From Actinomycetes bacterium (GTDB lineage Bacteria > Actinomycetota > Acidimicrobiia > Acidimicrobiales > Palsa-688): a DNA stretch of 64,000 bases. The first letter of the stretch is position 1; each line of letters starts with the position of its first letter. The notes below the pieces were generated by a model. That model made no database searches, was not told the origin of the DNA, and worked only from the letters and a program-made list of their open reading frames with translations. The DNA lies in NCBI GenBank assembly GCA_021850325.1, contig JAJZMF010000016.1, positions 1 through 64,000 of the forward strand, read 5' to 3'. This document shows, piece by piece, positions 1 to 9,909 of the stretch. Position numbers and translations under genes: made by a program.

Positions 1-547
1 GGACAACTCCGATGGTCCCGGGGTCGGTGCGCACGCTGGGCTGAGGGAAGGGCACCTGCTCGAACACCTGTTGAGCGCTCGGGGGTGGAGGCGCACTGGT
101 TTGTGTAGATGCTGGTGGCGGGCAGAATGCGTGTGCTACCCATGGGATATATGCACCCGTTGTGCTGTTGAAAGGAACTAGGGTGCTCGGTACGCTAGCT
201 CCACGACTCAAATAGTATGACGCGCTCCCAGGCTTGCTCTTTATGAGATGCCCACCATGACATACCTCACCTGCGGCAAGACATGCGTAACAGGGAACTG
301 CGACGAGATAAATGCCAGTTACTGGCCTGCCAACTCCAACGCTCGCCGGCGGAATACTCTTCGCAGGTTGAGTGCGAAGAACCCCTACGCCGATACGCGC
401 GTCTCTCGAGGAGAGCGCGCCACCCCCCCAGCCCTGGCCCTGGCCGGCCTCTGGCAGATCGAGCGAGCTCGTATGCAGCAGCGAGGCAGCTACAAGCAAA
501 ACGACCATCGAGCTGGTCTTTCTACCACTTATAGCGTGCAGCGACAT
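1..547 (-). CDS. secreted protein of the coupling-protein operon (partial, C-terminus outside window)
   Basis: An open frame runs from an ATG at 547 to the window edge without a stop (182 codons visible), so the C-terminus is missing. The start lies one base after the TAG of the upstream gene (TAGcATG), so it belongs to the same operon. The N-terminus looks like a signal peptide: basic residues Arg9 and Lys10, then a hydrophobic core at residues 14-24. After that come a Gly-rich patch near 35-43, four cysteines (86, 89, 96, 142; the first two as CxxC), a Pro-rich spacer at 143-156 and a segment ending PSVRTDPGTIGVV. That ending recalls exported proteins near actinobacterial conjugation-like clusters (family memory, not searched). 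Codon use is much less GC-rich than elsewhere in the window (ATA, AGT, TTG, AAG). Function unknown. Confidence 0.62.
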   Translation of the reverse strand, partial: MSLHAISGRKTSSMVVLLVAASLLHTSSLDLPEAGQGQGWGGGALSSRDARIGVGVLRTQPAKSIPPASVGVGRPVTGIYLVAVPCYACLAAGEVCHGGHLIKSKPGSASYYLSRGASVPSTLVPFNSTTGAYIPWVAHAFCPPPASTQTSAPPPPSAQQVFEQVPFPQPSVRTDPGTIGVV

Positions 548-548
548 G

Positions 549-1550
549 CTAGCGCGCTACCGATCCAAGGCCATGACTTAGCCTCAGAAGATGAATATCA
601 GCGAGCCTCCAGCGACCATCCCGACCCTCTACGAGAACTTCCGAAAAAGCAGCTTTACCGCCACCCGGTGAACGCATGACAGCCACGCCGCGGTGGTTGA
701 GCAGCACTCCAACTCTTTGATTAATAACTACATTGAGCGCAGCTGGGCTGAACATTGGATGGCCTTGAACGGAGCTCGTGATAAGTCGCCGTGGTGGGAG
801 AGTAATACCTAGCCAGTCAATCTCCGTGGGCGATGCGTCTGCGTGGAGATGATGGCTCTGGAGTTGTTCGATTCTTGAAAGCTCCAACTTGTACAACGCA
901 GTGCCCGGTTGCATGTACCGCTTCACGAACGACGGGTTCGGGTGGGACCACACCCAGTCCTGGTAGCGCACGAGGGTGATGAAGGCGGTCATGATGTTGT
1001 CGCTGTAGGCACCGGCCAGCGATGGTGGCTTGCTCTGTGCAGCAGGCCAGTGGGCGGGGTTGCCGTTGTCACCCACCAGCGTGTTCGGCGAGGTAGGTGA
1101 CCAGGGCACCGCAGTCCCAGCGGTCACGGACGGCGCTAGGGGGCTTGTGCCCGTGGCGGCAGGCCCTGCAGCCGTGACGACTGTACGCCCTGCCGTGGTC
1201 GGTGCCGTAGTGCCGGCCACGCGATGAGGGGACGAAACGGCCGTGCGCCTCGCTACGCCAGCCGAGGAGGACGGGGGTGCGGGCACACTGGGACGGGCAC
1301 TCCCGGTCGTGCGCGGGGCCGTGGTGGTACGAGCGGCTACCGGTGGGGCCCCATTGGGCGCTTTGGCACTGCCACTGCCCGCCATAGATGCAAGGACGGC
1401 GGCGACGCCCCCCACGACGACGACGGCGGTCACGCCCGTCAGGGCCCTTGCCCTCCTCCCCCGGGGCCATCGGCCGGTCGGCCACTCCCCCGGCGGTGGT
1501 CCGCCGCTGCCTGCCGGCGGTGCAGAAGGTGCGCCTGGCACCTGGCTCAT
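549..1550 (-). CDS. membrane-anchored protein with Pro/Ala/Thr linker and C-terminal globular domain
   Basis: I chose the ATG at 1550 because AAGGGAGGG lies about 10 bases upstream; the frame stays open to 1673 but that part looks like non-coding DNA. The product is 333 residues. A Pro/Gly-rich cytoplasmic head is followed by a basic patch and one transmembrane segment at about 37-55, then roughly 100 residues rich in Pro, Ala and Thr, typical of a wall-spanning linker. The C-terminal 150 residues look like a folded extracytoplasmic domain (aromatic-rich around YQDWVW, ending in strands such as RWRLADIHLL) and could be an NTF2-like or TcpC-like fold; this is inference. G+C drops sharply in the C-terminal half. 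It follows the DinB-fold gene by 95 bp and precedes the secreted protein by one base. No enzyme motif is visible; a structural part of a secretion or transfer apparatus is the best guess. Confidence 0.7.
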   Translation of the reverse strand: MSQVPGAPSAPPAGSGGPPPGEWPTGRWPRGRRARALTGVTAVVVVGGVAAVLASMAGSGSAKAPNGAPPVAARTTTAPRTTGSARPSVPAPPSSSAGVARRTAVSSPHRVAGTTAPTTAGRTVVTAAGPAATGTSPLAPSVTAGTAVPWSPTSPNTLVGDNGNPAHWPAAQSKPPSLAGAYSDNIMTAFITLVRYQDWVWSHPNPSFVKRYMQPGTALYKLELSRIEQLQSHHLHADASPTEIDWLGITLPPRRLITSSVQGHPMFSPAALNVVINQRVGVLLNHRGVAVMRSPGGGKAAFSEVLVEGRDGRWRLADIHLLRLSHGLGSVAR

Positions 1551-1645
1551 GTGGCTCTGGCCCTCCCTTGGTGACCGCGCATCGCTGCACGGGGCACTGC
1601 AAACGGACAACCCCACTGCGAGCCGGCGCGCCGCGCCGGGTACTG

Positions 1646-2407
1646 CTAGCGCCAGGGCCCGAGGACCGGGCACTCCCTCCCGGCGACCGAAGTCGCCCGC
1701 CCCGCCACCCAGGCGAACACCTGGGCCAGCGGGCCTGTGACCTCCATGGCATCACCACTACCGGCGAGCCAGTGCTGGTCGGCGTCGGTGGCGGTGATGA
1801 CCACCGCCACATCGGGCGGCAGCCTGGCCGGCAGGCCGAGCATGGCGCGGTCCATCTCCTCCAGGACCCAGCCGAACGGCCAGTCCTCCGGCCTGTAGCC
1901 ACAGTCGAGGTCCACGTGGTGGACCTCGACCTCCCTCAGGCGCCCGACCACCAGCCCCGGGCCCAGCTGGACCTCGCCGGCCATGGTGACGGCCCTGGCG
2001 TCCCATATGGCCTCCCCTGCTGCGTCCAGCACATCGGCCAGGCCCCGGCAGGCGGTACGCAGATCTGCCTCGAGCTCGACAGCAGGGCGGCCACGGCCGG
2101 CCTCCACCGCCGCGTCGCGGGCCGCCCTGCCGCCCGGGTACATCTCCACGACCCGGCCCCGGGCAGCCGCTTGGGCGCAACGGGCGATGGCATCGGCGTT
2201 CCTGGCCAGGTGCGTGACCACCATGGCCCGGTCCCAACCCGGCAGGAGGCTGGGGGCAGCCATGGCCACGTCGTCCAGGCTGCTCACAGTCGACAGCAGT
2301 TTGGCCGTGGCGGCAGCAATACGTCCCGCGTAGCTGGCCAGCATGAGCCCAAGCGTAAACCAATCGGGCACCTCCCGGTACCGGCCGGCTCCGGCCCTGC
2401 CGGTCAC
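1646..2407 (-). CDS. DinB-fold / mycothiol-dependent maleylpyruvate isomerase family protein
   Basis: The 253-residue product has the hallmarks of the MDMPI/DinB family: LLPGWDRAMVVTHLARN near residue 55 with the first metal-ligand His (about 66), and a REVEVHHVDLD segment near residue 160 with the Glu and His that complete the metal triad in this family. Members are metal-dependent and use or modify low-molecular-weight thiols; mycothiol is plausible because mshD is in this window. The GTG at 2407 overlaps the stop of the AAA ATPase gene as GTGA, so translation is probably coupled; an ATG at 2344 is a shorter alternative that also keeps the whole domain. Finding such an enzyme inside a coupling-protein operon is unusual. 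The substrate cannot be told from sequence. Confidence 0.8.
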   Translation of the reverse strand: MTGRAGAGRYREVPDWFTLGLMLASYAGRIAAATAKLLSTVSSLDDVAMAAPSLLPGWDRAMVVTHLARNADAIARCAQAAARGRVVEMYPGGRAARDAAVEAGRGRPAVELEADLRTACRGLADVLDAAGEAIWDARAVTMAGEVQLGPGLVVGRLREVEVHHVDLDCGYRPEDWPFGWVLEEMDRAMLGLPARLPPDVAVVITATDADQHWLAGSGDAMEVTGPLAQVFAWVAGRATSVAGRECPVLGPWR

Positions 2408-3489
2408 GGCAACGCGTCCGGGCCCCCGGCCACCGACGGGCCGGCCCGGCCCGGGCCCTGTGCGACCTCCCAGCCCGCCTGCACGTCAGCCCGGGACACC
2501 ACGCAGCGGCGACCGGACGACACCCAGGCATGGAACCCGGCCCTCTGCACCTCCAGAGGTGCCCCCCCGCTGAGCTCGTGCACGAGCTGTGCCGCCTGGT
2601 GCTCAAAACGCACACCGCGCTCGGCGGCGGGGACAGCCAGAGCCTCCTGCACCTCGTCGGCGTCCAAGGGCGCCAGCTCGCTGTGCCACAGCGTCCCCGC
2701 GAAGCTCCCGGCCTCCCGTACCCGCTCGCCCAGTGCCGGGCTCCCCGTCATGAGGAACGAGACCGGCAGGCCCTCACCGGCCAGGCTGTGCGCCAACCAG
2801 CCCAGGGCCTCCGCCTCCCCTGCCGCCAGCGCGTCCAGGTCGTCCAGGACGACGAGCACCCCACGGCCCAACGAACCTGCGAACCTCCCCACCCGGGCCA
2901 GTGCGTCCCGGGCACCCGACCAGGACGTCCGCACGCCATCGCCCACCCCAGGTGGGAGCGGCAGCGGGTGCTCGGGCGTGCCCCCTTCCCAGGCCTCCCG
3001 TTGCCGGGCTGCCGCCGACGCCCGGCAGCGGAGCACCGCCCCGGCGAACGCTGCCCGCTGGTGCGGCCACTGGGTGGCGACCGCCCCCAGGGCGGCCTCG
3101 GCGACCACGCCGAGCACCCTGGCCCTGGGAGCGCACGAGTGGAAGACCACCAGCCAGTCGAGCTGCTGGCGGGCCGTGCGCGAAGCCGTACGGGCCAGGC
3201 TCGTCTTGCCCATGGCAGGCCCGCCCAGGACCAACTGCCGGGAACGGGGGTCGGCCGGCCCCGTCCCCAGGGCCCGGGCAAAGCCGGCGAGCAGGCCCGT
3301 CCCGTCCAGACCCGGCGCCCCCGGACGGTCGACGAAGTGCGGTGGCTCGGCACCCCGGAGAGGTCGGAACGGCGGGCAGCCGTGAGGGCGGCCGACCTCC
3401 GGCAGCTCGTTGCCGTCATCCTGGCCCTCTGTCCTCGAGACCGTCCAATGGGCTGGGCCGGGCCGCTGGGCCAGCCGGGGGGCGCTCAC
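2404..3489 (-). CDS. AAA/ORC1-like ATPase of the coupling-protein operon
   Basis: The protein is 361 residues if started at the GTG at 3489, which overlaps the coupling-protein stop as GTGA and has GAGGAGG just upstream. The frame is open far beyond that point, but the upstream part only shadows the coupling-protein gene. Walker A is GGPAMGKTSL with Lys95; Walker B is VLVVLDDLDAL with Asp216 and Asp217; a sensor-like stretch SFLMTGSPAL follows. The C-terminal part (LSGGAPLEVQRAGF) resembles the lid region of AAA_16 and archaeal ORC1-type ATPases. It probably acts as a partner of the coupling protein or as an NTP-dependent regulator or DNA-binding factor. The family is clear, the role is not. 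Confidence 0.8.
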   Translation of the reverse strand: MSAPRLAQRPGPAHWTVSRTEGQDDGNELPEVGRPHGCPPFRPLRGAEPPHFVDRPGAPGLDGTGLLAGFARALGTGPADPRSRQLVLGGPAMGKTSLARTASRTARQQLDWLVVFHSCAPRARVLGVVAEAALGAVATQWPHQRAAFAGAVLRCRASAAARQREAWEGGTPEHPLPLPPGVGDGVRTSWSGARDALARVGRFAGSLGRGVLVVLDDLDALAAGEAEALGWLAHSLAGEGLPVSFLMTGSPALGERVREAGSFAGTLWHSELAPLDADEVQEALAVPAAERGVRFEHQAAQLVHELSGGAPLEVQRAGFHAWVSSGRRCVVSRADVQAGWEVAQGPGRAGPSVAGGPDALP

Positions 3490-5462
3490 AGCGCCTCCTC
3501 CAGGCCGGCAGCCGCCACGGGCAGTCGCGCCAAGCTGCGGGCATCGTCGTTCGCCCGGCGCAGGGCGCGCTCCTCCTGCTCGACAACGGGCCAGTCGGCT
3601 GCCTCCGACATGAGAGGCATGCGGGCCAAGAGAGGCGGCAACCGGCCCCACAGCACCAGGGCCACGCCGGCGGGCAGGGTCCTCACCTGGTCCGCTCGGA
3701 GCACGGGTTCCACCTCCCAGCTCACGGTGGTTGCGTCGCGGCCCCGGCCCCCACCGCGTTGCAGTGCCACCCTCCTTGCCCGGCGTTGCCCGCACAGACG
3801 TTCCAGCTCGGCCAGGTCGCCAGCCGATGTCAGGCCGCCCAGCACGGCCGTCACCGAGGTGGCGTTGGCCATAGTCTCCGCTCGCTTGTCCCCCCAGCGG
3901 GTGACGGCCTGCGAGAAGGACTGCATGGCGTACACGAGCACCAGGCCCCGCCCTCGGCCGTCCGCCAGGAGCTCGGGCAGCGACGGCAGCGGCGCGATGC
4001 TCGGGACCTCGTCCAGCAACCCGAGCAGCGGCGGGTCGAGACGGCGGGCCGGCATGGCCGCCGCCAGGCGTTCGGCGCGGTCGAACACCTCGTCGGCAAA
4101 AGCGGTTATGAGCGGCGCCACCGCACCGAGACGCGACGCCTTGCCCAGCAGGTAGACGGTGCCGTTGCCCCTGAGCAACCCGTCTATGTCGGTCTCCTCC
4201 CCCGGGTGTGGGCAGCACGAGCCGATCACGCTGCCGTGGCTGAAGCAGGCCAGGGCGCGGCCCACGTAGCGCAGGACGCCCGAGGTCGTCTCGGGCGCAC
4301 CGGTGGTGTGGAGCTCCACCAGGTCCTCCCACCCCGGGGCGGACAGCGACGAGGAGGCGAGCACGTCGGCCGGTGTCGTGTCGTCGGGCCGACGGGACCA
4401 CCCGAGCACCGCACGGATGTCCAGGCCGGCCAGAGCCGCGGCATGCAGGTAAGCCTTGAGCAGGTCCCGGGCAGAGTCGCGGAAGAAGCCCGAGTTCTGG
4501 GTGCCCCCGTCCTCGCCGGCCGCTGCCACCAGCGCCGCCGCTCGGCGCTCGGCCACTTCCGTTCCCTCGCAGCCCGAGACCGGGGACCAGCGCACCGGCG
4601 CCGCGGCCGGGACGAGACCGTCCGGGTCGAGCGCCACCACAGGCCCTACCCGGCCTCTTGCCATGGCGGTCAGCTCGAACAGGTCCGCTTTGGTGGAGGT
4701 CGCCACCGCCGGCCCGGGGTGCTGGCGCAGGATCGGGGCCAGGGCCCGGAAGGTCTTGCCCTCACCCGGAGGGGCCACCAGCCTGAGGGAGGCCTCCCAG
4801 TGGGCCCACAGCCGGGCCCCCGTCCCCTCCAGGCGGCCGAGCGGGTAGCCGACCTCCCTGGCCGCCACGACGTGGCGCGGCCACCGGCTGGCCGGGAGGG
4901 AGGGCCTGGTCTGGGCCGCCCGCCTCCGGGCGGCGGCCACCGATGCCTCGCGGCGCAACTGGGAACTGCTCGCCAACCCGTAGCGGTTCCGCCGGTCGGG
5001 CGGTACACGGTGGCCGAGCCCTCCCGGCCAGGCGGGCCTGGCCCGGCCACCTGCCCGGGGCCACGGCCGGGCCGGCTTTGGTGCCGGGCTGCTCCGGCGC
5101 CGGCGGCGGCCCCAACGGGCCCCCACTGCGGTGGTCAGGGACACCTCCGAGCCCACCAGCGCCCCCAGGCTGGCCCAGTACGCAGCCGGCCCGGCCAGGT
5201 GACGGCGCTCGGCCGGTGGCCACCAGGCCGTGGGGTGCGCCGGGCTCAGCAACGGCCCCAGGGCGGCGCCGAGTGCCCGGTCCCTAGGGGGCCAGGCCCA
5301 ACCCCGCCCGCTGACCAGGCCCGGTAGGGGTGCAGCGAGCAACAGGTCGGCGCAGAGCACGAAGCCCATTGCCAGGCCGACCTCCACCGCCAGGCCGGCA
5401 TGGCCCGAACGAGGCCCCGGGCCGGTGCGCAGCGGTGCCGGGGAGAGGGGGCCGCGGCTCAT
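3486..5462 (-). CDS. VirD4/TraG-type coupling protein (type IV secretion-like DNA translocase ATPase)
   Basis: This 658-residue protein starts at the ATG at 5462, which overlaps the upstream stop as ATGA. The first 130 residues hold hydrophobic, probably membrane-spanning, segments and a very basic stretch. Walker A is APPGEGKTFRAL with Lys236. Walker B is GLLDEVPSIAPLPSLPELL with Asp484-Glu485, followed by the GRGRGLVLVYAMQSFSQ stretch typical of the TraG/TraD 'TraM recognition' region. Such proteins are hexameric ATPases that bring DNA or protein substrates to a type IV secretion channel. No relaxase or VirB4 is visible here, so the rest of any machine would lie to the left of position 1 or elsewhere. 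The next gene (AAA ATPase) overlaps by four bases. Confidence 0.85.
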   Translation of the reverse strand: MSRGPLSPAPLRTGPGPRSGHAGLAVEVGLAMGFVLCADLLLAAPLPGLVSGRGWAWPPRDRALGAALGPLLSPAHPTAWWPPAERRHLAGPAAYWASLGALVGSEVSLTTAVGARWGRRRRRSSPAPKPARPWPRAGGRARPAWPGGLGHRVPPDRRNRYGLASSSQLRREASVAAARRRAAQTRPSLPASRWPRHVVAAREVGYPLGRLEGTGARLWAHWEASLRLVAPPGEGKTFRALAPILRQHPGPAVATSTKADLFELTAMARGRVGPVVALDPDGLVPAAAPVRWSPVSGCEGTEVAERRAAALVAAAGEDGGTQNSGFFRDSARDLLKAYLHAAALAGLDIRAVLGWSRRPDDTTPADVLASSSLSAPGWEDLVELHTTGAPETTSGVLRYVGRALACFSHGSVIGSCCPHPGEETDIDGLLRGNGTVYLLGKASRLGAVAPLITAFADEVFDRAERLAAAMPARRLDPPLLGLLDEVPSIAPLPSLPELLADGRGRGLVLVYAMQSFSQAVTRWGDKRAETMANATSVTAVLGGLTSAGDLAELERLCGQRRARRVALQRGGGRGRDATTVSWEVEPVLRADQVRTLPAGVALVLWGRLPPLLARMPLMSEAADWPVVEQEERALRRANDDARSLARLPVAAAGLEEAL

Positions 5463-6220
5463 GCGGCACCTGAGACCAGGCAGCGCTCGGCCCGGGACAG
5501 GGCATAGTAGACGGCACGCTCGGCCAGGCCATGGCACCGGCCCACCTCGCTCGCCGGCATCCCTTTGACCCGGGCCGCGTAGAGCAGGCTGGCGTCGGCC
5601 CGGGCCAGCCGGCCGACCTGCACCGCCTGCACGAGCACCTGGGCAAGTTGCTCGGCTGCGCTGCGGTCGTCACGCCGGACCGGCGGAGCGGTCGCCACAT
5701 CGAGGGGAGCCGTGCGGGTAAGGTCCCGGTACCTCGCCTGGCGGGCCGTGCGCAGCCGCCGGGCCGCCTCCCGTACCAGTAGCCGGTCGACCGTCTCCCT
5801 GTCCTCACCGGCGTGGCGCTTGATGGCGGCGAAGCACTCGGCCACCAGGTCGGCCGCGGTGTCCTGCGTGCTCTGCCAGTGCTCCTCGAGGCCGTGGCCG
5901 TAGGTGGGCGTGTACACGTTCTCCGCCGACAGCCGGGGCAGCATCGCCTGGAGGAGAGCCCGGGCAGCCAGGGCCGAGCCTGCTTGGCGCAGGAGGGCCG
6001 ACAGTAGCTGTGCCGTCTGGTCCGACGGCCGGTAGCCGCTCCAGCACGCTCCGGCCACCGCCGTCGCCAGGCAGGCGGCCGGCTCCCCGGGGCCCGGGCA
6101 GCCAGGGGGCCGGCGTAGCTCCGGCTCGGCCCGGCACAGGCGCCCGGCCTCGGAGCGGGCACCTTCACTTCGTAGAACCTGTCGCCACTCCTGGTCCAGC
6201 CGGGCCCGGAGGGCTTCCAT
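5459..6220 (-). CDS. sigma-70 region 4-like helix-turn-helix protein, first gene of the coupling-protein operon
   Basis: The product is about 253 residues. I favour the ATG at 6220 because AGGA lies about 11 bases upstream; an in-frame ATG at 6238 would add six residues. The C-terminal 60 residues (ADASLLYAARVKGMPASEV, then GLAERAVYYALSRAE) have the spacing of a sigma-70 region 4 helix-turn-helix, with ASEVGRCHGLAERAVYYALSRA as the likely HTH. The N-terminal part is mostly helical and shows no sigma region 2. Its position at the head of a run of overlapping genes suggests an autoregulator or a DNA-processing adaptor. It is too short and lacks the pieces needed to be called a working sigma factor. 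Confidence 0.65.
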   Translation of the reverse strand: MEALRARLDQEWRQVLRSEGARSEAGRLCRAEPELRRPPGCPGPGEPAACLATAVAGACWSGYRPSDQTAQLLSALLRQAGSALAARALLQAMLPRLSAENVYTPTYGHGLEEHWQSTQDTAADLVAECFAAIKRHAGEDRETVDRLLVREAARRLRTARQARYRDLTRTAPLDVATAPPVRRDDRSAAEQLAQVLVQAVQVGRLARADASLLYAARVKGMPASEVGRCHGLAERAVYYALSRAERCLVSGAA

Positions 6221-6266
6221 CGGGTGACTTGTCCTCATGGGCCACCACGCTGCCCACGGGCTTCCC

Positions 6267-6320
6267 CCGGATCTTCCCCTCCGGCTTCCCCTCGGGGAGC
6301 CGCCCAGGGGGAAGATCCGG
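6267..6320 (-). terminator. stem-loop after trpA
   Basis: A perfect 13-base inverted repeat (6267-6279 with 6308-6320) encloses a second, nested GC-rich stem (about 6282-6302). It lies directly downstream of trpA, in front of the next operon. There is no T-run, as is common in high-GC actinobacteria, so it may end transcription poorly or protect RNA ends. Confidence 0.6.
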
Positions 6321-6335
6321 CGCGCCCGAGAGGCT

Positions 6336-7151
6336 TCAGCCGAGCGAGTCGAGCGCCGCCCGGAGATCGGCCACCCGGGCTGCGATGGCATCGGGGGACG
6401 CCCCGTCCAGCGCCATGCGCATGAGCGCCGACGCCACCACGACCCCGTCCGCCGGGCGGGCGGCGGCCACGGCCTGCTCCGGGGTGGCTATGCCGAAGCC
6501 CATCACGACCGGCTTGTCGGTCAGAGCCTTGAGCCTCCTGGCCAGCACCGACGAACTGGACGCCAGGTCCCGGCGCTCACCCGTCACGCCCATCAGGTTG
6601 ACCCCGTAGACGAAGCCCTGGGAACGCCTGCAGATGGTGGCCAGGCGGTCCTCGGGCGTCACCGGCGCCGCCAGCAGGACGGTCTCGACCCCCTCGGCCG
6701 CGGCATCGGCCTCCCAGGTGGCCGACTCCTCGAGGGGCAGGTCGGGGACGATGGCCCCGCGCACTCCCGCCGTGGCCATCTGGTGGGCGAAACGCCTGGT
6801 GCCGGCACGCAGGACCAGGTTGGCGTAGGTCATGACGACCAGAGGTACTCCCACCTCGAGCGGGCGCAGTTCGGCGGCCACCGAGCTCGGGGTGGTACCT
6901 CGGGCCAGAGCGGTGCTCGAAGCCTCCTGGATGGTCGGCCCGTCCATCATGGGGTCCGAAAAGGGCAGGCCCACCTCTATGGCGTCGGCGCCGGCCGCCG
7001 CCATGGCGAGCAGGATGGTGGTCCAGTCGGCCCGCAGGCCTCCTGTCACGTAGGGGACGAGCAACTTGCGACCGCTGGCAACGACCCTTGCCAGGTGGTC
7101 CCCGAGGGGCACCCCCCGTGGCGCGTCCAGCTGGGCCGGGAGCGCGCTCAC
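6336..7151 (-). CDS. trpA: tryptophan synthase alpha chain
   Basis: TrpA cleaves indole-3-glycerol phosphate to indole and glyceraldehyde 3-phosphate and passes indole to TrpB. The 271-residue product is of normal length and shows the family landmarks: LLVPYVTGG near the N-terminus, [18 protein letters not shown] with the catalytic Glu, a second catalytic acid in the [12 protein letters not shown] loop, and [14 protein letters not shown]. The GTG at 7151 overlaps the trpB stop as GTGA, so trpB and trpA are translationally coupled, which fits their 1:1 complex. It is the last gene of trpC-trpF-trpB-trpA; a strong hairpin follows. Confidence 0.97.
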
Positions 7152-8353
7152 AACCTGTCCCCCAGTAGCTTCATGACCTGCTCCGCGTCCTTGTCGCCCC
7201 GTCCGGACATGGTGACCAGCACCGTTGAGCCGGCGGGCACCTCCCCCTGACGGGCCGCCCGGGCCAGCCAGGCCAGGGCGTGCGCCGGCTCCAGGGCGGG
7301 GATTATGCCCTCGGTCCGGGCCAGGAGCTGCAGGGCATCCAGCACCTCGTCGTCGTCGGCCGAGCTGTAACGGGCCCGGCCCACCTCGGCCAGGTGGGCG
7401 TGCTCGGGCCCGATGCCCGGGTAGTCGAGGCCGGCGGAGATGGACTCCGCCTCCAGCACCTGGCCGAACTCGTCCTGCAGGACGTAGGAACGCATGCCGT
7501 GCAGCACACCCGGCACCCCCCGTGCCCCGAGGGCCGAGCCCCCTGCCGCCTCCACTCCCACCAGTTGGGCCGAGGTGCCCACAAAGCCGGCGAAGGTCCC
7601 GGCCGCATTGCTGCCACCCCCGGCGCACGCCACCACGTAGTCGGGGTCACGGCCCAGGATCTCCAGGCACTGGGCCCGGGCCTCCTCGCCGATGACCCGC
7701 TGGAACTCCCTGACCATCCAGGGGAAGGGGTGAGGGCCCATGACCGAGCCCAGGCAGTAGTGGGTGTGGCCCACGGTCGCCACCCAGTCCCGCAGCGCCT
7801 CGTTCACCGCGTCCTTCAGGGTCCTGCTGCCCGAACGAACGGCGCGGACCTCGGCCCCGAGCAGCCGCATCCGGAACACGTTCAGCTCCTGGCGCTCCAT
7901 GTCCACCTCGCCCATGTAGACGGTGCACTCGAGCCCGAACAGTGCCGCCGCAGTGGCTGTGGCCACGCCGTGCTGGCCCGCCCCGGTCTCGGCCACCAGG
8001 CGCTTCTTGCCCATGCGCAGGGCCAGGAGGCCCTGGCCCACGACGTTGTTGATCTTGTGGCTGCCTGTGTGGTTGAGGTCCTCCCGCTTGAGCAGCACCT
8101 TGACCCCGAGGGCCGAGGACAGGTTCTCGCACACGGTGACCGGGCTGGGACGGCCAGCGTAGTCCCGCAGCACGTCCTCGTAGCGCTTGCGGAAGGCGGG
8201 GTCGGCCCAGGCGGCGCGGAAGTGGGCTTCCAGCTCCTGGCAGGCGGGCACGAGCGACTCGGGGACAAAACGTCCGCCGAAGTTGCCGAAACGGCCCGTG
8301 GCGTCCGGCTCTGTCATCAGGGCCGTCGGCACGGGCACCTCAGCTGCGGTCAT
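7148..8353 (-). CDS. trpB: tryptophan synthase beta chain
   Basis: TrpB is the PLP enzyme that condenses indole with serine to give tryptophan. The 401-residue product matches the family end to end: [15 protein letters not shown] at the start, the PLP lysine in HTGSHKINN, the catalytic Glu region [14 protein letters not shown], the phosphate-binding loop CAGGGSNA, and [12 protein letters not shown]. The ATG at 8353 has GAAAGGAA eight bases upstream. It sits 87 bp after trpF and overlaps trpA by four bases. Confidence 0.98.
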
Positions 8354-8411
8354 GAGTTCCTTTCAGTCCGCTCCGTTTACGGGCCGGCCGGGCCCGGGCG
8401 CCGCGCGCCGG

Positions 8412-8436
8412 GGCCGCCGGGAGGCCACCGGCGGCC
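8412..8436 (-). other. stem-loop between trpF and trpB
   Basis: A perfect 9-base GC-only inverted repeat (8412-8420 with 8428-8436) with a 7-base loop sits in the only real gap (87 bp) of the trp operon. It could be an RNA-processing or stability element, or simply chance in GC-rich DNA. No T-run follows. Confidence 0.35.
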
Positions 8437-8440
8437 GGGC

Positions 8441-9115
8441 TCATTCGTCGTCCGCCCAGTCGTAGGGTGCCCAGCGCGAGGCAACGGCGCCACCCCCTGC
8501 GCCCACGCTGAGAGCCGCCTCGCGGGCCGCCGCCACGAACTCCTTGACCTTCAAGGGGTCCTTGGTCCCCGGCGCCGCCTCCACGCCCGAAGCGACGTCC
8601 ACACCCCAGGGCTTTGCCGCCCTGATGGCCGCTGCCACATTGGCCGGGTTGAGGCCACCGGCCAGGACCAGGCGCTGGCCCTCGGGCAGGTCGCCGGCCA
8701 GCGCCCAGTCGAACACCTTGCCCGACCCCGGGTTGGGGGCGTCCAAGAGGATGGCGTCGGCTCCGTACTCGGCGGCCTGGGGCACCCGGGGGTCGCCCGC
8801 CGGCAAGGCCTTGATCACCATGGGGATGCGCTGGCGGATCCAGCGCGTCTCCGCCGGGGTCTCGGCCCCGTGCAACTGGGCGGCATGCAGGCCGGCCCCG
8901 TAGACCACCTCGACCACGCGCTGGGGTGCGTCGTTGCGGAACACGCCGACCGTCAGCACCTCGTCGCGCGGGAGCCTCTTCACGATGTCGGAGACCCGCT
9001 GCACCGAGACCCGCCGGGGCGAGGGGGCGAAGATGAACCCCACGGCGTTGGCGCCCATGGCGACCGCCAGCAGAGCATCGTCCTCGGAGGTCGTACCGCA
9101 GACCTTGATGAGCAC
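8441..9115 (-). CDS. trpF: phosphoribosylanthranilate isomerase
   Basis: This (beta/alpha)8 enzyme turns phosphoribosylanthranilate into the carboxyphenylaminodeoxyribulose phosphate used by TrpC. The 224-residue product starts MLIKVCGTTSEDDA with the catalytic Cys in KVCG; VGFIFAPSPRRVS, HAAQLHG, AILLDAPNPGSGKVFDW with the catalytic Asp, and VLAGGLNPANV all match the family. A GTG start shares one base with the trpC stop (TAGTG). It lies second in the trp operon. Confidence 0.96.
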   Translation of the reverse strand: MLIKVCGTTSEDDALLAVAMGANAVGFIFAPSPRRVSVQRVSDIVKRLPRDEVLTVGVFRNDAPQRVVEVVYGAGLHAAQLHGAETPAETRWIRQRIPMVIKALPAGDPRVPQAAEYGADAILLDAPNPGSGKVFDWALAGDLPEGQRLVLAGGLNPANVAAAIRAAKPWGVDVASGVEAAPGTKDPLKVKEFVAAAREAALSVGAGGGAVASRWAPYDWADDE

Positions 9116-9909
9116 TATTCGCTCCCGGTGGCCAGGAGGGCGGCCAGAGCAGCCCCGGGATCGGGTGAGCGGACCAGGGCCTCACCGACCAGGACGGCGT
9201 CGAAGCCTGCGCCGGCGAGACGGCGCACGTCACGCGCCGAGGCAATGCCGGACTCGGCAACCCGCACCACGTCGGCTGGCAGGGCCGCCGCCACCCGGAC
9301 GGCCCGGTCCGTGTCCACCTCGAAGGTGGAAAGGTCCCGCTGGTTGACGCCGACGAGGCGGGCACCACAGGCCAGGGCACGCTCGGCCTCGGCCTCGTCG
9401 TGGACCTCCACCAAGGCGTCCAGGCCGAGCTGGGACGCGGTCTCGAACAGCTCCTGCAGTTCGCGCTGCGCCAGTGCGCTCACTATCAGCAGGACGGCGT
9501 CCGCCCCCATGACCCGGGCATCGCACAAGTCGGCGACGCAGACCGTGAAGTCCTTGCGCAGTACGGGGAGGCCCACCGCCCGGCGGGCCTCGCGCAGGTC
9601 GTCGGGGGACCCGCCGAAGAACTCGGTGTCGGTGAGCACCGACAGGCACGCAGCGCCACCCTGTTCGTAGGCCTTGGCCAGCGATGCCGGCACCAGGTCG
9701 GGCGCCAGGGGGCCCTTGGAGGGGCTGCGCCTCTTGACCTCGGCGATGGCGGCCACCCCACCACCGCGCCTTCCCGCACCGAGAGCGGCGCTGAAGCCCC
9801 GGGTCGGCGGGCACGCCTCGGCCTGGCGCAGGAGCCGGGTGATGTCGCGCTCGTCGCGCGCCGCAGTGGCGCGGTGGGCCACCAGGATCCGGTCCAGGTA
9901 CGTCGCCAT
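9115..9909 (-). CDS. trpC: indole-3-glycerol phosphate synthase
   Basis: TrpC closes the indole ring to make indole-3-glycerol phosphate. The 264-residue product carries IAEVKRRSPSKGPL (catalytic Lys and phosphate contact), YEQGGAACLSVLTDTEFFGGS, VLRKDFTV with the second catalytic Lys, LVGVNQRDLSTFEVD and VAESGIASARDVRRL. The ATG at 9909 has a TACGCT hexamer eight bases upstream, so it may be translated from a leaderless message. It is the first gene of trpC-F-B-A; trpE lies 8 kb away and trpD and trpG are not in this window. Confidence 0.97.
   Translation of the reverse strand: MATYLDRILVAHRATAARDERDITRLLRQAEACPPTRGFSAALGAGRRGGGVAAIAEVKRRSPSKGPLAPDLVPASLAKAYEQGGAACLSVLTDTEFFGGSPDDLREARRAVGLPVLRKDFTVCVADLCDARVMGADAVLLIVSALAQRELQELFETASQLGLDALVEVHDEAEAERALACGARLVGVNQRDLSTFEVDTDRAVRVAAALPADVVRVAESGIASARDVRRLAGAGFDAVLVGEALVRSPDPGAALAALLATGSE

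Follow-up and report, generated by a model that had tools for sequence, protein, structure and literature searches.

Analysis of the window, meaning the whole stretch of 64,000 nucleotides (the first 64 kb of contig C38 in a 3.18-Mb genome of 49 contigs), points to a three-gene module at its left end, encoding an HTH protein, a VirD4/TraG-type coupling ATPase and an AAA+ ATPase, as part of a domesticated, dispersed, conjugation-derived DNA transporter that would work together with a Tad pilus (probability about 0.4). The anatomy and descent of the module are well supported, whereas its function is what we infer. The module belongs to a run of six genes, all present on the − strand directly downstream of trpC-trpF-trpB-trpA, in agreement with the single direction described for them in an earlier sequence-only reading. 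The features of this region are listed below in the order of their coordinates.

1..547, − strand: secreted PKD-domain protein (PF00801), N-terminal 182 of 308 aa; the gene ends at C22:507
549..1550, − strand: single-pass linker protein with a Pro/Ala/Thr linker and an external NTF2-like domain; homologues in Tad clusters
1646..2344 (or 2407), − strand: DinB-fold mycothiol-dependent enzyme (MDMPI; PF11716, TIGR03083), probably a passenger
2404..3489, − strand: AAA+ ATPase, ORC/Cdc6/clamp-loader-like, 361 aa (PF13191; model and fold match)
3486..5462, − strand: VirD4/TraG-type coupling ATPase, 658 aa (PF12696, PF02534; TrwB match in the PDB)
5459..6220, − strand: HTH protein, 253 aa, C-terminally sigma-70-region-4-like, probable regulator
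6221..6338, − strand: strong hairpin in the stretch that separates trpA from the HTH gene (MFE −69.9 kcal/mol, z −3.4)
6336..9909, − strand: trpA, trpB, trpF and trpC, the fixed chromosomal anchor upstream, in an order kept in relatives

The HTH/ATPase and ATPase/AAA+ junctions are 4-base overlaps, a single base separates the linker gene from that of the secreted protein, and the DinB/linker gap measures 95 bases. Four of the five junctions had been read as tight from the sequence; three of them are, and the fourth (AAA+/DinB) becomes an overlap if DinB is taken to begin at GTG 2407, but not with ATG 2344, the start that relatives conserve, which leaves a gap of 59 bases. The hairpin at 6221–6338 is a possible boundary between the trp operon and the module, and it might itself be a terminator or attenuator of that operon. 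The sixth gene runs over the edge of the window and continues on contig C22 to a stop at base 507; C22 and the first bases of the window have a 127-base assembly overlap in common, the joined gene encodes 308 aa, and the join is borne out by the order of genes in relatives. Past the PKD gene, C22 carries an ArsR-type regulator, a phosphoesterase, an ABC transporter, a two-component system and polA, these names being read from the sequences without a family search.

Neither the window nor the 40 kb to the left of its edge contains VirB4, PrgI, VirB6 or a relaxase, so the remark that no relaxase was in view stands. The DNA to the left, which had been suggested as the place to look for the missing parts of a machine, holds housekeeping genes, and such parts sit at other loci of the genome. 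Of the two settings considered for the cluster, a chromosomal locus was correct, and the end of an integrated element is rejected, as housekeeping genes lie on both sides, also beyond position 1, in the same order in relatives. The cluster was to be regarded as a chance or decayed remnant if its neighbours were only housekeeping genes and related genomes lacked the linkage; this does not apply, because the locus is chromosomal and is kept in related genomes. A phage origin was rejected for lack of a match in PHROG, and an anti-phage defence system for lack of a match of five proteins to the PADLOC models.

Among the 32 genomes of the family (the gene caller used was home-made), 11 besides that of the window encode close relatives of the ATPase (57–75% identity), and 10 of these 11 have the ATPase gene with the HTH and/or AAA+ gene at the trp locus, which makes 11 genomes including the window's own. 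In one of them (G005), a short contig leaves only the AAA+ and DinB genes and the downstream side visible. Wherever contigs are long enough, C22-type genes follow the module in relatives. The four genera with the trp-linked module form one clade in a trpA+trpB tree, with 100% support, and the other family members read have different genes after trpA. The HTH protein, with orthologues at 47–63% in 10 trp loci, has only a weak Pfam match to sigma-70 region 4 (E 0.007, below the cut-off) and is presumably a regulator. Orthologues of the AAA+ protein (39–50%) retain GKT and DD; it matches Pfam AAA_16 (PF13191, 6e-10), and its predicted model, of moderate quality (pLDDT 69), resembles ORC/Cdc6 and clamp loaders by fold match, in keeping with the ORC1-like label given to it before. 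Values of dN/dS, which are simple pairwise estimates with high dS in distant pairs, amount to 0.08–0.21 for the ATPase, 0.15–0.32 for the AAA+ protein and 0.13–0.30 for the HTH protein, and indicate at the sequence level that the module is under clear purifying selection. Judged by gene order, this three-gene core, which 11 genomes share in identical arrangement at the trp locus, is far beyond chance, and the trees and synteny show a module inherited vertically and fixed after trpA in the four-genus clade. The DinB gene (Pfam MDMPI_N, 2.5e-21) is limited, at the trp locus, to g1, g5 and part of g9 and was not found there in G015 and G022; it is probably a passenger. The notion of a single six-gene system thus does not hold: HTH-ATPase-AAA+ alone is the conserved module, DinB is missing from the spot in the two genomes just named, and the surface genes are Tad/Flp components that stand here in one genus only.

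As first proposed, the ATPase is a genuine coupling protein of the VirD4/TraG type, and according to Pfam, its TrwB match and its tree it descends from conjugative elements. It scores above both curated cut-offs (T4SS-DNA_transf, 2e-14, 53.6 vs 20.1 bits; TraG-D_C, 1e-20, 74.1 vs 22 bits), and TrwB is its best match among the solved structures in the PDB. Walker A (PPGEGKT) and Walker B (LLDE) are invariant in 10 ATPase sequences, and the first Walker A glycine is changed to Ala in the trp group. The tree places the trp-linked group with T4SS-linked coupling proteins, apart from a second, solitary group of VirD4-like proteins that is family-wide. The member of the latter group in this genome (C42 of G000, L036:1988–3547) is devoid of N-terminal membrane segments and has relatives in most family genomes, one of which, in G016 (C55, L162:5919–10488), comes after an HTH gene and an intact TrwC relaxase.

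More distant relatives of the trp-linked ATPase (35–39%) are found beside VirB4, PrgI and VirB6 genes in apparent conjugative elements. In the twelfth genome with a close relative, Acidiferrimicrobium sp. IK (G002), the HTH and ATPase genes are not at trp but belong to a block of ~30 kb together with a Tad pilus cluster, NlpC/P60, VirB6-like, PrgI-like and VirB4 genes, a helicase-methylase and a primase. By sequence comparison, this ATPase is the nearest outside relative of the trp-linked one, and the HTH protein adjoining it is 36% identical to that of the window. No integrase was seen in the ~30-kb block, and for this reason its mobility is an assumption. Between G002 and the clade, identities are 60–68% for the ATPase and 54–61% for TadA, an equal distance that is as expected if both travelled together. 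The tree, the TrwB match and the element-linked relatives therefore show that a conjugative coupling gene pair was fixed after trpA once, with the AAA+ gene added. A conjugative-type locus on a contig of G016 (C26 of that genome, L090:9254–18353) includes TraG-like and VirB4-like genes, as well as its own AAA_16 ATPase, which is 31% identical to the AAA+ protein of the window and is a possible source of this partner.

The last two products of the run had been taken for surface parts, and this proved correct, both being proteins of the Tad cluster. The linker protein has no Pfam match, and the secreted one matches PKD (1e-5). The external NTF2-like domain of the former (model pLDDT 84) is closest to PARC6 (Z 12.0) and reaches Z 8.1 with the VirB8 domain of PrgL, from which no claim of VirB8 identity is made, as many unrelated NTF2-like folds score at least as high as PrgL. 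The Tad cluster in relatives has the order tadV-rcpC-tadZ-tadA-tadB-tadC-flp-tadE-tadE-tadG-linker-PKD-GNAT-like-BTAD; in the clusters of g5 the linker gene was not found and PKD remains. In the genus of the window, the cluster is otherwise complete, the slot between tadG and the GNAT-like gene is empty, and linker and PKD genes are located in the ATPase operon, as in no other genus (in G013 and G014 the linker gene alone is visible there, at the contig end). Of the Tad set, only these two surface genes are in the window operon, with TadA, TadB, TadC and the Flp pilin elsewhere, on C31. The G+C content of the linker and PKD genes (1–1550) is 0.56–0.65 across much of both genes, compared with 0.73 for the genome, and their homologues inside the Tad clusters of relatives are low in G+C as well. 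The end of the Tad cluster (L106:2512–5634 on C31 of G000) encodes a 1040-aa protein with N-terminal membrane segments and a C-terminal BTAD domain, which is kept in the Tad clusters of relatives.

The 12 of the 32 family genomes that have the ATPase are exactly those with TadA of the same type, the remaining 20 lacking it, and this co-occurrence counts as two acquisitions because of the trpA+trpB tree. Across 298 genomes of the order, one further family has this TadA type, with linker and PKD genes in place. Mobile Tad plasmids were rejected, as neither TadA (E 1e-40) nor the linker protein has a match in the plasmid collection.

One T4SS locus was found in the 0.85 Mb of the genome read (C26, L187:8776–18118), between flagellar/sigma-factor genes and murT. 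It consists of genes for VirB2-like, VirB6-like and PrgI-like proteins, a discoidin-domain protein and VirB4, with no coupling protein among them. Adjoining it on the other strand is a homologue of TrwC relaxase (Pfam 9e-40) which, compared with the intact homologue of G016, is devoid of the first tyrosine pair and of the helicase Walker A, with an open frame whose start was checked in all frames; an assembly error may account for the missing parts, and the homologue has no match in the plasmid collection. In this genome, the only one in which the locus is known, C26 thus presents chromosomal homologues of VirB2, VirB6 and VirB4 and lacks a competent relaxase, as in Ced/Ted-like systems. These genes and the missing coupling protein, together with the grouping of the ATPase with T4SS-linked coupling proteins, are what an ATPase serving as the coupling protein of a dispersed C26 T4SS would predict, one exporting proteins or a protein-DNA complex, with a Tad link that is regulatory or historical only. 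We regard this as unlikely, given that the genome has the second VirD4-like gene on C42, of the kind that follows an intact TrwC relaxase in G016, that the membrane anchor was lost in several lineages, and that this leaves the presence of Tad genes in the operon without explanation.

That anchor varies considerably. Two N-terminal hydrophobic segments, the first strong and the second weaker, are present in the ATPase of the window, as are two in G013 and G006; there is none in G015, G016, G017 and G007, and at most one in G022 and G023. In g9, the start codon of the ATPase gene still overlaps the HTH stop, and the anchor was therefore removed cleanly. VirD4-type proteins usually need their N-terminal membrane domain for transfer, although a subfamily without it exists (PMC7434980). 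The four sequences with no hydrophobic N-terminus, the DNA-type AAA+ partner and the solitary locus would all suit a cytosolic DNA motor that works in the manner of HerA/FtsK in repair, recombination or segregation and needs no channel. Since g1 and G006 retain the anchor, the ATPase is strictly confined to Tad-bearing genomes, and surface genes are part of the operon, a motor of that kind appears distinctly improbable.

From the co-occurrence and the operon shared with Tad surface genes, one could also suppose that the ATPases are accessories of the Tad pilus, assisting its assembly or retraction and not acting on DNA. There is little to recommend this, as the Tad cluster on C31 is complete with its own TadA, TadB, TadC, TadZ and TadV, and the same Tad type is present in G152, where a named scan confined to two peptide patterns found no close relative of the ATPase. 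Least likely of all is a remnant of an integrated element drifting without function, for which the conjugative-type ancestry and the missing neighbours speak, but which is at odds with the low dN/dS, the invariance of the Walker motifs and the persistence of the three-gene order across four genera.

According to the preferred reading, that of a domesticated transporter, the HTH protein, the VirD4-type ATPase and the AAA+ protein would be the coupling and motor module of a conjugation machine captured by the host chromosome. The AAA+ protein would load the ATPase onto DNA, the ATPase would move DNA across the cell membrane for a DNA-transfer machine owned by the host, and the Tad pilus, together with the NTF2-like and PKD proteins, may be the surface arm. 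Since the relaxase appears to have lost its function, the machine would more probably serve to take up or exchange chromosomal DNA than to export an element. In favour of such a transporter are the trp-anchored synteny in 11 genomes with 100% clade support, the ATPase dN/dS of 0.08–0.21 with invariant Walker A and B, the G002 relative sharing a block with Tad, VirB4, VirB6 and PrgI, the presence of ATPase and Tad cluster in the same 12 of 32 genomes with linker and PKD filling the tadG-GNAT slot in relatives, the position of the ATPase in its tree, the DNA-type AAA+ fold, and the C26 T4SS with no coupling protein and a degenerate relaxase homologue. Precedents are Ced/Ted (PMC9905601) and Flp-pilus-dependent transformation (PMC4322843). 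Against it, there are two acquisitions only, and joint inheritance from one ancestral element could explain the co-occurrence; the Tad cluster already encodes an ATPase of its own, and G152 has the Tad type with no close ATPase relative in the two-pattern scan; the anchor that VirD4-type proteins usually need (PMC7434980) was lost in several lineages; the C26 T4SS, seen in one genome, may pair with the VirD4-like C42 gene instead; and neither ComEC nor ComEA was found by a motif scan of 0.85 of 3.18 Mb. We can speculate, more tentatively, that a dismantled conjugative system gave rise to a bacterial counterpart of archaeal Ced/Ted owned by the host, with the motor at trp, the T4SS channel at the flagellar/murT locus, Tad as the surface arm and the relaxase disarmed.

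With the VirD4/TraG/TrwB coupling proteins (PF02534, PF12696; TrwB of R388) the ATPase has in common the sequence family, Walker A/B and the TraG-D_C region, as well as, in the window copy, two N-terminal hydrophobic segments; unlike them, it is fixed in the chromosome with no VirB4 or relaxase nearby, has an AAA+ operon partner and lost its anchor in some lineages. Actinobacterial conjugative elements and plasmids encode homologous coupling proteins with a 'TraM recognition domain' (35–43%, e.g., L048 and L052), and an HTH partner is found in G002 (L047), but VirB4, PrgI and VirB6 are close by in those elements and absent from the window locus. Nor does the locus fall under the definition of an integrative conjugative element, in which relaxase, VirB4 and coupling protein are clustered (PMC3158045), as VirB4 and the degenerate relaxase homologue lie on another contig. 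In archaeal Ced/Ted, conjugation machinery was domesticated for the transfer of host DNA (PMC9905601), and the conjugation-derived, chromosomal VirB2/VirB6/VirB4-like set with no competent relaxase recognised is common to both; in contrast to Ced/Ted, the present case is bacterial, is spread over several loci, combines a VirD4-type ATPase with a Tad pilus, and is only a candidate for DNA import. Natural transformation of Micrococcus luteus, likewise an actinobacterium with a complete Tad cluster, depends on its Flp/Tad pilus, with ComEC and ComEA serving DNA uptake (PMC4322843), whereas in the present case the link is to a coupling ATPase, and the 0.85 Mb covered showed neither ComEC nor ComEA. 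Among the papers searched, none joined a Tad pilus, a conjugative element and a coupling protein.

The fixed motor genes and their exclusive association with one Tad/Flp pilus type suggest a bacterial DNA-transfer machine built from tamed conjugation parts. The gene list is short and testable, and the family includes a cultured genus, Acidiferrimicrobium. If the reading is true, orphan VirD4-type ATPases, annotated as debris of elements, would be explained, and a bacterial case tied to Tad would add to transformation and conjugation a further way of exchanging DNA.
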